Assembly (NCBI RefSeq): GCF_002252755.1
Contig: NZ_NHOY01000025.1
Span: 1 to 64,000 of the forward strand
Reading direction: 5' to 3'
Length of the DNA: 64,000 nt
Origin: Halorubrum sp. Hd13
Lineage (GTDB): Archaea; Halobacteriota; Halobacteria; Halobacteriales; Haloferacaceae
Shown: piece by piece, positions 9,911 through 33,720 of the stretch
Layout: every line of letters starts with the position of its first letter
Position numbering within the stretch: the stretch's first letter is position 1
Notes under the pieces: model-generated
The model's input: only the letters and a program-made list of their open reading frames with translations
Databases searched by the model: none
Told to the model about the DNA's origin: nothing
Position numbers and translations under genes: made by a program

Positions 9911-12189
9911 TGGACTCCCACCGCGCCGCGTTCGTCGCCGAGGCGGAGGACGGCATCACGGACCTCAACAACGCCCTGCTCGCGCTGGAGGCCGACCCCG
10001 AGGACGCCGAGGCGATGGACGACGTGTTCCGCGTCGCCCACACGCTGAAGGGGAACGCCGCGGCGATGGGGTACGACGACGTCTCCGACTTCGGGCACGC
10101 CCTCGAGGACCTGCTCGACGCGGTCCGACAGGGCGACCGCGAGGTGACGCCCGAGCTGATGGACCTCCTGTTCGAGGGGGTCGACACCGTCGAGGCGATG
10201 GTCGCTGAGATCGCCGACGCCGGCGAGGTCGCGACCGACCCCTCGGATCTGGAGGGCCGCCTCCGGGAGATGGAGGAACACGGGACCGTCGGCGACGACG
10301 CGACCGACGGCGACGGCGACGACACCGCCGACGGCGACGGCGACGACACCGCTGACACCGCCGACGCCGACGGCGACGACGCGACCGACGGCGACGACAC
10401 GGTTGCCGAAAATGGCGACGACGACGCGGCCGACGGCGACGACGTCTCCGTCCCCGATCTCCCGGCGGCCGCCGCGGGGCTCGACGCCCCCGTGGTGTAC
10501 GCCGACGTGACGATCGGCGAGACGTCGATGGCGGGCGTCGACGCCGCGCTCGTCCTGCAGGCGCTCGACGGCCAGTTCGACGGCCACGTCACGGATCCGG
10601 ACCCGGACGCGCTGGAGGAGGGCGAGTACGACGAGGGGTTCGACGCGTTCGTCGCCGGCGCCGACCCCGACGTGGTCGCGGAGGGGCTCGGCGCGCTCAC
10701 GCAGGTCGAGTCGGTCGCGACCGCGCTCGCCGCCGCGGAGACCGGTGACGCCGCCGACGCGGAGACCGGTGACGCCGCCGACGCGGAGACCGGCGACGCC
10801 GCCGCCGACGGCGACGAGTCGAGCGCGCAGGCCGAAAAGGCGGCGCCGGCGCCGACCGAAGAGACCGGCCCCGGCGAGGGAGAGACGGCCGAGGGTGCGC
10901 CCGACGGCGAGCCGGCGGAGTCCGAGACGACCGACCGCGACGAGATCAAGTCGATCCGAGTCGACGTCGACCAGGTCGACGAGCTGTACGGGCTCGTCGA
11001 GCAGCTGGTGACGAGCCGGATCAAGCTCCGGCGCGAGCTGGAGGCGGCGGACGCCGAGTCGGACACGCTGGACGAGCTCGACAAGCTCGCGTCCAGCCTC
11101 CAGGACACGGCGATGGACATGCGGCTCATCCCGTTCTCGCAGGTGTCGGACTCGTTCCCGCGGCTCGTCCGCGACATCTCGCGGGACCTCGACAAGCGGA
11201 TCGACTTCGAGATCGAGGGCGACGACGTGGAGCTCGACCGCACGATCCTCACGGAGATGCGCGACCCGCTCGTGCACGTCCTGCGGAACGCGGTGGACCA
11301 CGGGATCGAGTCCGCCGAGGAGCGCGAGGCCGCCGGCAAGGATCCGACCGGACACGTCAGGCTCACGGCCGAGCGCGAGCGCGACCACGTGATAATCGAG
11401 GTCGCCGACGACGGCGGCGGACTCGACCCGGACCAGCTCCGCGAGAAGGCGGTCGAGGAGGACGTCAAGAGCCGCGAGGCGGTCGAGGCGATGGAGGACG
11501 ACGAGGTGTACGACCTCGTCTTCCACCCCGGCTTCTCCACCGCGGAGGAGGTCACCGACGTCTCCGGGCGCGGGGTCGGGATGGACGTCGTCCGGACGAC
11601 CGCCCGGGACCTCGACGGCTCCGTCGCGGTCGAGAGCGAGCCCGGCGAGGGAACGACGGTCCGGTTCCGCCTCCCGGTCACCGTCGCCATCGTGAAGGTG
11701 ATGTTCGTCGACGTCGGCGGCACGGAGTACGGCATCCCGATCAAGTCGATCGCCGAGGTCGCCCGCGCCGACGACGTGGAGGAGGTCCACGGCGACGAGA
11801 TCGTCCGCCACGAGGACGACCTCTACCCCGTGATCCGACTGAACGAGCGCCTCGCGGAGAGCGGCGCCGCGGCGGTCGGCTCGGGAATCGGCGACGGATC
11901 CGGAGAGAGCGACGCCGGAGCGGAGGACGGACCGCCGGCGAACGCCGAGGCCGCGGTGAGCGACGCCGAGGCCGCATCGACCGACGGCGGCGTCACCGAC
12001 GAGGGGATGCTGGTGCGGATCCGCGAGGAGACCCGGCAGGTCGCGCTCCACTGCGACGCGGTGCTCGACCAGGAAGAAGTGGTGGTGAAACCCCTCGACG
12101 GGCCGTTGTCCGGGACGCCGGGACTGAGCGGCACGGCGGTCCTCGGCGACGGCGACGTCGTGGCCGTGCTCGACGTGGTGAGCCTATGA
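9910..12189 (+). CDS. cheA: Chemotaxis histidine kinase CheA
   Basis: A 759-aa CheA. In order: HPt/P1 with phospho-His H44 in VAHTLKGNAAAMGY; a very acidic Asp/Gly/Ala repeat linker (about 130-180); a P2-like region (TIGETSMAGVDAAL); a second low-complexity linker with ETGDAADA repeats; P3 dimerisation; P4 kinase with N box HVLRNAVDHGIE, G1 ADDGGGLDP and G2 GRGVGMDVV; and CheW-like P5. P5 is unusual: about 48 low-complexity residues (about 650-697, Gly/Ala/Asp/Glu-rich) are inserted between the strands around VIRLNERLAE and MLVRIREETRQ. It sits between cheB and cheR with overlapping starts and stops. Confidence 0.96.
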   Translation: MDSHRAAFVAEAEDGITDLNNALLALEADPEDAEAMDDVFRVAHTLKGNAAAMGYDDVSDFGHALEDLLDAVRQGDREVTPELMDLLFEGVDTVEAMVAEIADAGEVATDPSDLEGRLREMEEHGTVGDDATDGDGDDTADGDGDDTADTADADGDDATDGDDTVAENGDDDAADGDDVSVPDLPAAAAGLDAPVVYADVTIGETSMAGVDAALVLQALDGQFDGHVTDPDPDALEEGEYDEGFDAFVAGADPDVVAEGLGALTQVESVATALAAAETGDAADAETGDAADAETGDAAADGDESSAQAEKAAPAPTEETGPGEGETAEGAPDGEPAESETTDRDEIKSIRVDVDQVDELYGLVEQLVTSRIKLRRELEAADAESDTLDELDKLASSLQDTAMDMRLIPFSQVSDSFPRLVRDISRDLDKRIDFEIEGDDVELDRTILTEMRDPLVHVLRNAVDHGIESAEEREAAGKDPTGHVRLTAERERDHVIIEVADDGGGLDPDQLREKAVEEDVKSREAVEAMEDDEVYDLVFHPGFSTAEEVTDVSGRGVGMDVVRTTARDLDGSVAVESEPGEGTTVRFRLPVTVAIVKVMFVDVGGTEYGIPIKSIAEVARADDVEEVHGDEIVRHEDDLYPVIRLNERLAESGAAAVGSGIGDGSGESDAGAEDGPPANAEAAVSDAEAASTDGGVTDEGMLVRIREETRQVALHCDAVLDQEEVVVKPLDGPLSGTPGLSGTAVLGDGDVVAVLDVVSL
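10738..10809 (+). repeat. 24-bp tandem repeat in cheA linker
   Basis: Three consecutive 24-base units at 10738-10761, 10762-10785 and 10786-10809 encode ETGDAADA repeats in the linker between P2 and P3. A looser acidic repeat (GDGDDTAD type) lies at about 10300-10400. Such linkers are length-variable spacers. Confidence 0.85.
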
Positions 12190-32451: not shown

Positions 32452-32877
32452 GACGCGCGGAGCACGTCGTTTCGGATTCGGCCCCCTTCGATCGTCGGAA
32501 CTTCTTCAAACCACCAGCCGCTCGCTTATAAGCAGTTGTCTGTGTTCCAACTGTGAACACTTCCAAAGTCCCAGCCGCGAGGCGCTTCGCGCCTCTGGCA
32601 GCCGGCGACGGAGCCGCCGGCGACTGCCCCTTTGAGTCCTCCCCGACCGCGACCGCACCCAGCCTCATACCTCCCCAGCCTAGTCGGCCGGCGCTTACGA
32701 GCGCCGGCCGACTCCCTCGCGCGTGCTCCTCGCGGGCCGGTGGCCCGCTCGCAGGCACGCGCCACCGCACTTGTCTGTGATGGAACACGCCGATCTCGTC
32801 GCCAGTCGGATCCGCTCGCTCGGATCGACCGACGAAACCCCGGAACCCCTTTGAACGGCCGCGACGACGGTATCTGT
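32452..32877. other. Non-coding region with multi-hairpin element
   Basis: 426 bases between rpo4 and the eIF2B-like gene. Apart from the structured element at 32523-32762, it shows no convincing reading frame; the open frames that cross it are fragments in unlikely composition. The last 100 bases hold the upstream region of the eIF2B-like gene. Confidence 0.6.
32523..32762 (+). ncRNA. Candidate structured RNA or mobile hairpin element
   Basis: A TATA-like GCTTATAAGC (32524-32533) is followed by a GTGTTC/GAACAC inverted repeat (32542-32560) and four strong hairpins. Hairpin 1 at 32579-32595 has 7-bp arms and a 3-base loop. Hairpin 2 at 32601-32621 has 7-bp arms. Hairpin 3 at 32682-32713 has perfect 14-bp arms around TACG. 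Hairpin 4 at 32719-32762 has outer 8-bp arms plus an inner 7-bp stem with a 3-base loop. All lie in non-coding sequence. It could be a small RNA, a REP/MITE-like repeat or a processing/termination region after rpo4; only recurrence or transcript data can decide. Strand is assumed from the TATA element. Confidence 0.5.
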
Positions 32878-33720
32878 ATGATCGACGAGACCGTCGCCGA
32901 GATCCGGGCGATGCGGACTCACAGCACGTCGGCGGTGGCCGTGAAGGCGACGCGCGCGCTCGCGGAACTGCTCGACCGCGAGTACGTGACGGTCGACGAG
33001 TTCGAGCGCGACCTCGAACACAACGCGGGCGTGCTTCGCCGGTCGAACCCCTCTCACGCCGCGCTTCACAACGCGATGCGCGACGTCGAGCGCTCCATCA
33101 TCGGCGAGCCGACCAGCGTCGAGGACGCCAAACAGCTGCTGCAGGAGACCATCGACCGCGTCGCCGACGACATCGAGACGGCGAAGGGGGAGGCCGCCGC
33201 CAACGCGGCCGAACGCATCGAGGACGGCGACACGCTGTTGGTCCACGACTACTCGACGACGGTGCTGGAGTCCATCGAGAACGCCGCCCGCGACGGCGCG
33301 CACCTGACCGTCTACGTCACGGAGGCGCGCCCGCGCACGCTCGGCCGAAAGACGGCGCGCGTCCTCGCCGGGATGCCCCGCGTCGACGTCCACATGGTCG
33401 TCGACAGCGCGATGGGGTACGCCCTGCGCGACTGCGACCGCGTCCTCCTCGGGATCACCTGCATCACCGGCGGCACCTACTACAACCGGATCGGAACGTT
33501 CCCCGTGGTCGTCACCGCGCGCGAGCTCGAGGTGCCGGTGACCGCGGTCGGCTCGGGCGCGAAGACGATCGAGGAGTTCCGGTTCGAGAACGAGTTCCGC
33601 GACGCCGTCGAGGTGATGCGCGAACCCGTCGAGGACGTCGAGATCGAGAACCCGAGCTACGACGCCACCCCGATCGGGATGATCGACACCGTGATCACCG
33701 ACGACGGCGTCGTCGAGTAG
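32878..33720 (+). CDS. eIF2B-alpha family protein lacking isomerase catalytic residues
   Basis: A 280-aa member of the same superfamily as the R15P isomerase at 16730-17701. Conserved fold motifs are present (VYVTEARPRTLGRKTA, GTYYNRIGTFPVVVTA, VENPSYD-type end), but the catalytic Cys is replaced (VHDYSTT, D124) and the catalytic Asp by Thr (LGITCITGG, T194). It is thus unlikely to be an R15P isomerase and may be the regulatory eIF2B-like protein of haloarchaea with unknown ligand. The start is set at 32878 (MIDETVAEI); the upstream frame runs through the hairpin element and is not credible. Confidence 0.85.
   Translation: MIDETVAEIRAMRTHSTSAVAVKATRALAELLDREYVTVDEFERDLEHNAGVLRRSNPSHAALHNAMRDVERSIIGEPTSVEDAKQLLQETIDRVADDIETAKGEAAANAAERIEDGDTLLVHDYSTTVLESIENAARDGAHLTVYVTEARPRTLGRKTARVLAGMPRVDVHMVVDSAMGYALRDCDRVLLGITCITGGTYYNRIGTFPVVVTARELEVPVTAVGSGAKTIEEFRFENEFRDAVEVMREPVEDVEIENPSYDATPIGMIDTVITDDGVVE

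Follow-up and report, generated by a model that had tools for sequence, protein, structure and literature searches.

The gap downstream of rpo4 in Halorubrum sp. Hd13 holds a cluster of hairpins, and the question it raises is whether these belong to a small RNA or to a DNA repeat. The window, by which we mean the whole 64,000-nucleotide stretch analysed, places this gap between rpo4 (NF011550, E 3e-61, downstream of rpl21e) and an open reading frame at 32880-33720, which returned no match in an NCBIfam search and which may be eIF2B-like. An earlier note on the sequence described a TATA-like element, a short inverted repeat and four perfect or near-perfect hairpins, among them 14-bp arms around a TACG loop and a nested double stem; all of these are present (Table 1). 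The element extends from about 32498 to 32769, wider than the 32523-32762 first assigned to it. Compared with dinucleotide shuffles, the 240 bases so assigned give a better fold on each strand (z -4.55 and -4.82, 0 of 200 shuffles), and the stem of hairpin S2 is the sole perfect stem of 12 bp or more within the window. Twelve such stems occur in 1.2 Mb of a relative, seven of them in or near copies of the repeat described below. The short inverted repeat is probably incidental, because GAACACC lies in a conserved unit and its partner in a variable spacer. Beyond the element, the sequence upstream of the gene at 32880 (CCCCGGAACCCCTTTGAA, window 32840-32880) is strongly conserved in nearly all Halorubrum genomes examined and fits a leaderless promoter.

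Table 1. Features of the repeat copy downstream of rpo4 (window coordinates).
Feature	Position	Strand	Remark
Degenerate end of first left unit, GAACTTCTTCAAACCACCAGCCGC	32498-32521	+	71% to 32555-32578, spacing 57
TATA-like box TTATAAG of second left unit	32526-32532	+	Halorubrum-specific feature
Short inverted repeat GTGTTC/GAACAC	near 32541-32560		
Conserved left unit block, GTGAACACTTCCAAAGTCCCAGCCGC	32553-32578	+	conservation climbs 14 bases ahead of AAAG
Nested double-hairpin module GAGGCGC-TTC-GCGCCTC / TGGCA / GCCGGCG...CGCCGGC	32579-32621		replaces long stem 1
First hairpin of module, 7 bp, loop TTC	32579-32595		
Second hairpin of module, 7 bp	32601-32621		
Conserved linker K1, CTGCCCCTTTGAGTCC	32624-32639	+	
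Conserved linker K2, CCTCATACCTCCCCAGCC	32663-32680	+	most widely conserved part, other genera included
Hairpin S2, perfect 14-bp arms, loop TACG	32682-32713		cassette wholly different at the G009 orthologous site
Nested hairpin S3, outer GCGCGTGC/GCACGCGC, inner GCGGGCC/GGCCCGC	32719-32762		inner part swapped between orthologues
Conserved right end CACCGCA, where conservation ends	32763-32769	+	covariance model match 32624-32769

The hairpin cluster is one member of a non-coding DNA repeat family whose interspersed copies occupy intergenic gaps throughout Halorubrum. A DNA search gives 59 matches in the same genome, and a covariance model of the right half of the repeat finds 86 at E<=0.01 and 73 at E<=1e-8. 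Halorubrum genomes carry roughly 70-90 scattered copies each, all 52 that were searched contain a match, and 1.2 Mb of the close relative G009 holds 23 near-full copies. Among named genomes the exact motif CTGCCCCTTTGARTCCCNCC occurs in more than 116 stretches, and all 80 of the matches listed are from Halorubrum (two of these genomes are uncultured, one being archaeon A07HR67); an exact 20-mer around linker K1 is likewise confined to Halorubrum among the 80 matches listed. The impression recorded in the earlier note, that similar text recurs in Halorubrum genomes, is thus borne out within the genome, across the genus and among named genomes. An order-wide search of 293 genomes extends the family further, with 77 matching at E<=1e-6 in 24 of the 87 genera. 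The linkers of copies within one genome are on average 86% identical (maximum 97%), with no burst of identical copies; active mobile elements seldom look like this, and the copies may be under selection. The only annotated Halorubrum record examined, a plasmid, leaves the family without annotation, and the literature searched, largely outside subscription papers, contains no description of it, although an earlier one is possible.

The anatomy of the repeat was drawn from 35 copies of the same genome and 160 copies overall. The RNAalifold consensus is weak because the S2 cassettes cannot be aligned, and the structure was therefore set by hand. The repeat is a multi-part element of 270-400 nt consisting of tandem units ending AAAGCCCCAGCCG, a long hairpin, a linker CTGCCCCTTTGAGTCC...CCTCCCCAGCC, the hairpin S2 and the nested hairpin S3. 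The left units, usually one to three (up to five), are spaced 51, 54 or 57 bases apart and each ends in GTGAACACCTCCAAAGCCCCAGCCG; a left TATA, where found, lies most often 38 bases ahead of AAAGCCCC. The long hairpin, stem 1, lies between AAAGCCCC and GCCCCTTTGAG and is followed by the linker CTGCCCCTTTGAGTCCCACC...CCTCACGCCTCCCCAGCC, S2, CTCCCTCG, nested S3 and the end, GCGCGCCACCGCA. In most Halorubrum copies a right TATA stands within about 20 bases past this end (nearby in 93 of 152; in the control, 1 of 158). The copy in the window has two tandem left units, 57 bases apart, a short double hairpin where other copies hold stem 1, and no right TATA. Upstream of the start codon, predicted Halorubrum genes have purines at -36 to -33 and a signal resembling a TATA box at -31 to -26, which would be expected if most Halorubrum transcripts are leaderless. 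Should the local TATA-to-start distance of about 31 hold, any rightward transcript of the window copy would be predicted to begin near 32557.

In other genera, at loci from several families, the order is AAAGCCCC, stem 1, GCCCCTTTCAGTCCC, CCTCACnCCTCCCCARCC, S2, TCCCTCGCGCG, S3 and GCGCGCCAC; the sequence of stem 1 is entirely different and the order of parts is kept. The group G158 is without the left half. None of 22 relatives checked in four genomes of other genera has a TATA at either end, which makes the promoter-like part a feature of Halorubrum; some of the 22 have tandem AAAGCCCC units. As a separate observation, several GGGG runs of the minus strand face one another near stem 1 and K2 (window 32555-32680), where the plus strand has CCCC/CCCC conserved in all genera; a G-quadruplex on the minus strand of the repeat is conceivable.

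Several other classes of element can be set aside. The left units are not coding, although their spacings are multiples of three, since there is a stop within the TATA and a small number of indel events accounts for the spacings. Nor do they form a CRISPR or tandem array, as the units number at most five, at 51-57 spacing, and a spacer array is absent. No autonomous copy carrying a gene in stem 1 was found, the longest distance from left unit to core being 209 nt. Copies of the family were not found in phage records, and the 16 viral contigs that contain a 16-mer of it lack the rest of the core, which argues against a phage or virus origin. A tRNA search of the window returned only a tRNA-Asp at 10282-10380.

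Covariance analysis across copies, a check proposed in the earlier note, does find covariation: the score is 0.259 against 0.124 after shuffling (0 of 500), and 16 of 23 pairs have changed on both sides. The kinds of pair are informative, since a structured RNA should tolerate G.U on whichever strand is transcribed. With a scorer that handles G.T and A.C alike, S2 gives 1325 Watson-Crick, 7 G.T and 9 A.C pairs, and S3, which holds a conserved mismatch, gives 1343, 41 and 40; together there are 48 G.T and 49 A.C. The tRNA control from the same genomes, a small one of 18 tRNAs, gives 184 Watson-Crick, 12 G.T and 0 A.C (difference p=0.0005). The G.U bias of non-Watson-Crick pairs seen in tRNAs is thus absent on either strand of the repeat, and S2 alone gives the same answer as the pooled test.

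The origin of the covariation is seen at orthologous sites of one species pair, G000 and G009, which share six sites beyond the window (one, L050, is not comparable part by part). Flanks at the six orthologous sites compared are 94-98% identical, apart from one flank of L068 at 84% and, for the window pair, a left flank that is out of register. Linker K2 is 83-100% identical at the six sites. Stem 1 differs in every comparable case and the inner part of S3 in most. Most sites also carry a different S2 (in one case GTCGGACCGGCGCG.. has given way to GTCGCTGGCGGCGG..), and the replacements are again palindromes. In several cases the swapped S2 cassette has a twin of 93-100% identity at another locus, and four of ten S2 alleles are without a close twin (>=90%) among the copies sampled. 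Hairpins are therefore replaced as palindromic blocks while the linkers are kept, and the covariation arises mainly from block exchange between copies. As linkers persist while palindromes swap, a DNA element whose copies exchange palindromes is the favoured reading; hairpins that swap as whole cassettes behave as parts of a DNA element, not as those of a conserved small RNA.

The short double hairpin that occupies the place of stem 1 in the window copy belongs to a further class of sequence nested in the repeat. Of 14 adjacent pairs of perfect hairpins in 1.2 Mb of G009, 10 lie in repeat copies. Such modules are 43-50 nt long, fall into types by their linker (GCCA, TGCCA/TTGCA, TGATGA and the complements; the window module is of the TGGCA type, the complement of TGCCA) and occur in both orientations. 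They were noted at the window, L046, L195, L199, L200, L308 and L300 and are polymorphic between orthologues; L046, a copy from the same genome as the window, contains two module inserts that are missing from its G009 orthologue. From these comparisons the modules are apparently mobile in their own right.

Genomic context was taken from a simple home-made codon-based gene caller. All of 76 copies are intergenic, none lying inside a gene, and 40 (53%) lie between convergent genes, compared with 20% of all adjacent gene pairs (p=3e-10). The plasmid copy, on pHAR01 of Hrr. salinarum, also lies between convergent annotated genes. Close species differ in the presence of the repeat, and those without it at a site have an ordinary short gap there. 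Besides the six sites shared by G000 and G009 at least two are empty; comparisons with other species give four shared sites and at least four that are cleanly empty. Shared copies have the same orientation. Relatives also differ at the rpo4 site: the repeat is present in some and degenerate in others, and two have a short gap without it. What lies between rpo4 and the gene at 32880 also varies across the genus (loci L194-L223): the two are adjacent in some genomes, with other genes between them in most. The left and right ends of the repeat differ in an alignment of 35 copies, with no terminal inverted repeats; the two flanks of a copy resemble each other no more than permuted flanks do (z 1.4-1.5), and an 80% direct repeat flanking the window copy, a candidate target-site duplication, is not general across copies. 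No transposase linked to the repeat was found. There are no clean junctions at the empty sites, so that the variable occupancy may stem from insertion or from deletion.

We therefore weighed four readings. The one we favour, with somewhat better than even confidence, is an interspersed palindrome-based DNA repeat, Halorubrum-wide with relatives in the Halobacteriales, whose hairpins are exchanged as cassettes. The earlier note had offered a new small RNA or a repeat family; the repeat family is strongly supported and the small RNA is not. For the latter, copies would be structured non-coding RNA genes, each with a TATA promoter of its own within the left unit; a rightward transcript would run from near the GTGAACACC block as far as the right end and keep a conserved fold. 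The TATA is indeed at a spacing typical of Halorubrum starts, conservation climbs at the predicted start, unpaired linkers are conserved and the covariation is strong; furthermore a 489-bp repeat of the Halorubrum virus HRTV-DL1, called a PATE, is transcribed (PMC10544981), so repeats of such a sort can make RNA. Against this, the stems change as blocks without the G.U bias found in tRNAs, the plus-strand loops are C-rich, the relatives examined in other genera lack the TATA, and a leftward transcript from the right TATA, which we rejected, would begin within S3. In Rfam the window has no match at the gathering threshold, and relaxed thresholds gave chance-level matches only. An RNA gene is thus improbable, although Halorubrum copies, with a TATA box at a promoter-like distance, may be transcribed.

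We judge as similarly improbable that the repeat is a functional bidirectional boundary between convergent genes, selected at each site, whose hairpins would end or block transcription or bind a nucleoid or architecture protein. The share of copies in convergent gaps, the constant orientation at shared sites and a sequence frame conserved without recent duplicates are consistent with such a role, but 47% of copies are not in convergent gaps, there is no U-run terminator, close species do without the repeat in ordinary short gaps, and neutral insertion that avoids promoters also predicts the convergent bias. A PATE strictly defined, meaning a non-autonomous IS605-type relative that has lost its core and is moved as single-stranded DNA by TnpA, is less probable still. 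The near-terminal palindromes, the lack of inverted terminal repeats and target duplication and the invasion by small palindromic modules, as of PATEs by SMR-A (PMC3119063), all point that way. However, none of 42 Halorubrum IS200/IS605 loci shares linkers or units with the repeat, one neighbouring copy excepted, G009 has the repeat without a match to a Y1 transposase, and no target oligonucleotide can be defined. Apart from this comparison, at L357 (G000 contig C8 7352-8791) a TnpB-encoding IS605-type element directly adjoins a repeat copy, and the palindrome of this element, AAGCCCACGGCTTCAGCCGTGGGA, lies just past the right TATA of the repeat.

The nearest kind overall is that of the transposase-free palindromic repeats (PATEs and SMRs) of Haloquadratum. 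PATEs of Haloquadratum walsbyi are non-coding, present in high copy, without inverted terminal repeats or target duplication, and have palindromes near their ends that are often invaded by smaller palindromic elements (PMC3119063). By form they are nearest to the repeat, which resembles them in its ends and in having palindromes near both termini (stem 1 by the left units, S3 at the right end). It differs in its tandem left units, fixed linker frame, three palindromes and whole-cassette exchange; we do not file the family as PATE because the defining kinship with IS605-type ends was tested and not found. SMR-A elements insert into the palindromes of PATEs (PMC3119063), and the double-hairpin modules are likewise small, palindromic and preferentially inside a larger repeat; by description they are set apart by their length (43-50 nt against about 110 bp) and by two tandem hairpins in place of terminal inverted repeats. 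A MITE is rejected, as neither inverted terminal repeats nor target duplication was found. Bacterial REP/BIME sequences are short intergenic palindromic repeats with many copies, and the repeat resembles them in that; it is longer and multi-part, and no link to a Y1 (RAYT-like) transposase was found. Double-hairpin elements are a known kind in mitochondrial genomes. The nested module, two adjacent hairpins that are apparently mobile, can be likened to these by description, although it is archaeal and has its own linkers.

For the cassette-exchanging DNA repeat that we favour, a mechanism can be proposed. The palindromes would form hairpins or cruciforms as DNA, at which the DNA could be broken, stalled or skipped; the gap would then be refilled from other members of the family via the conserved linkers, that is, by ectopic gene conversion. 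New copies would arise by rare insertion through machinery supplied in trans, and convergent gaps may be enriched because an insertion at such a place leaves promoters and operons intact. The double-hairpin modules would be smaller mobile palindromes inserting into the repeat. A bolder idea, which we consider unlikely, is that these are order-wide elements of the Halobacteriales in which a selected linker frame with interchangeable palindrome cassettes makes an array of hairpins that renews itself, marks or insulates the ends of convergent genes and is targeted by specialised double-hairpin mobile modules.

Covariation is normally read as proof of RNA. In this family the strand test and the orthologues indicate that it comes from whole-hairpin exchange at the level of DNA, a caution for the discovery of RNAs by covariation, and the family would preserve, in polyploid archaea, a natural record of the ectopic exchange that takes place around palindromes.
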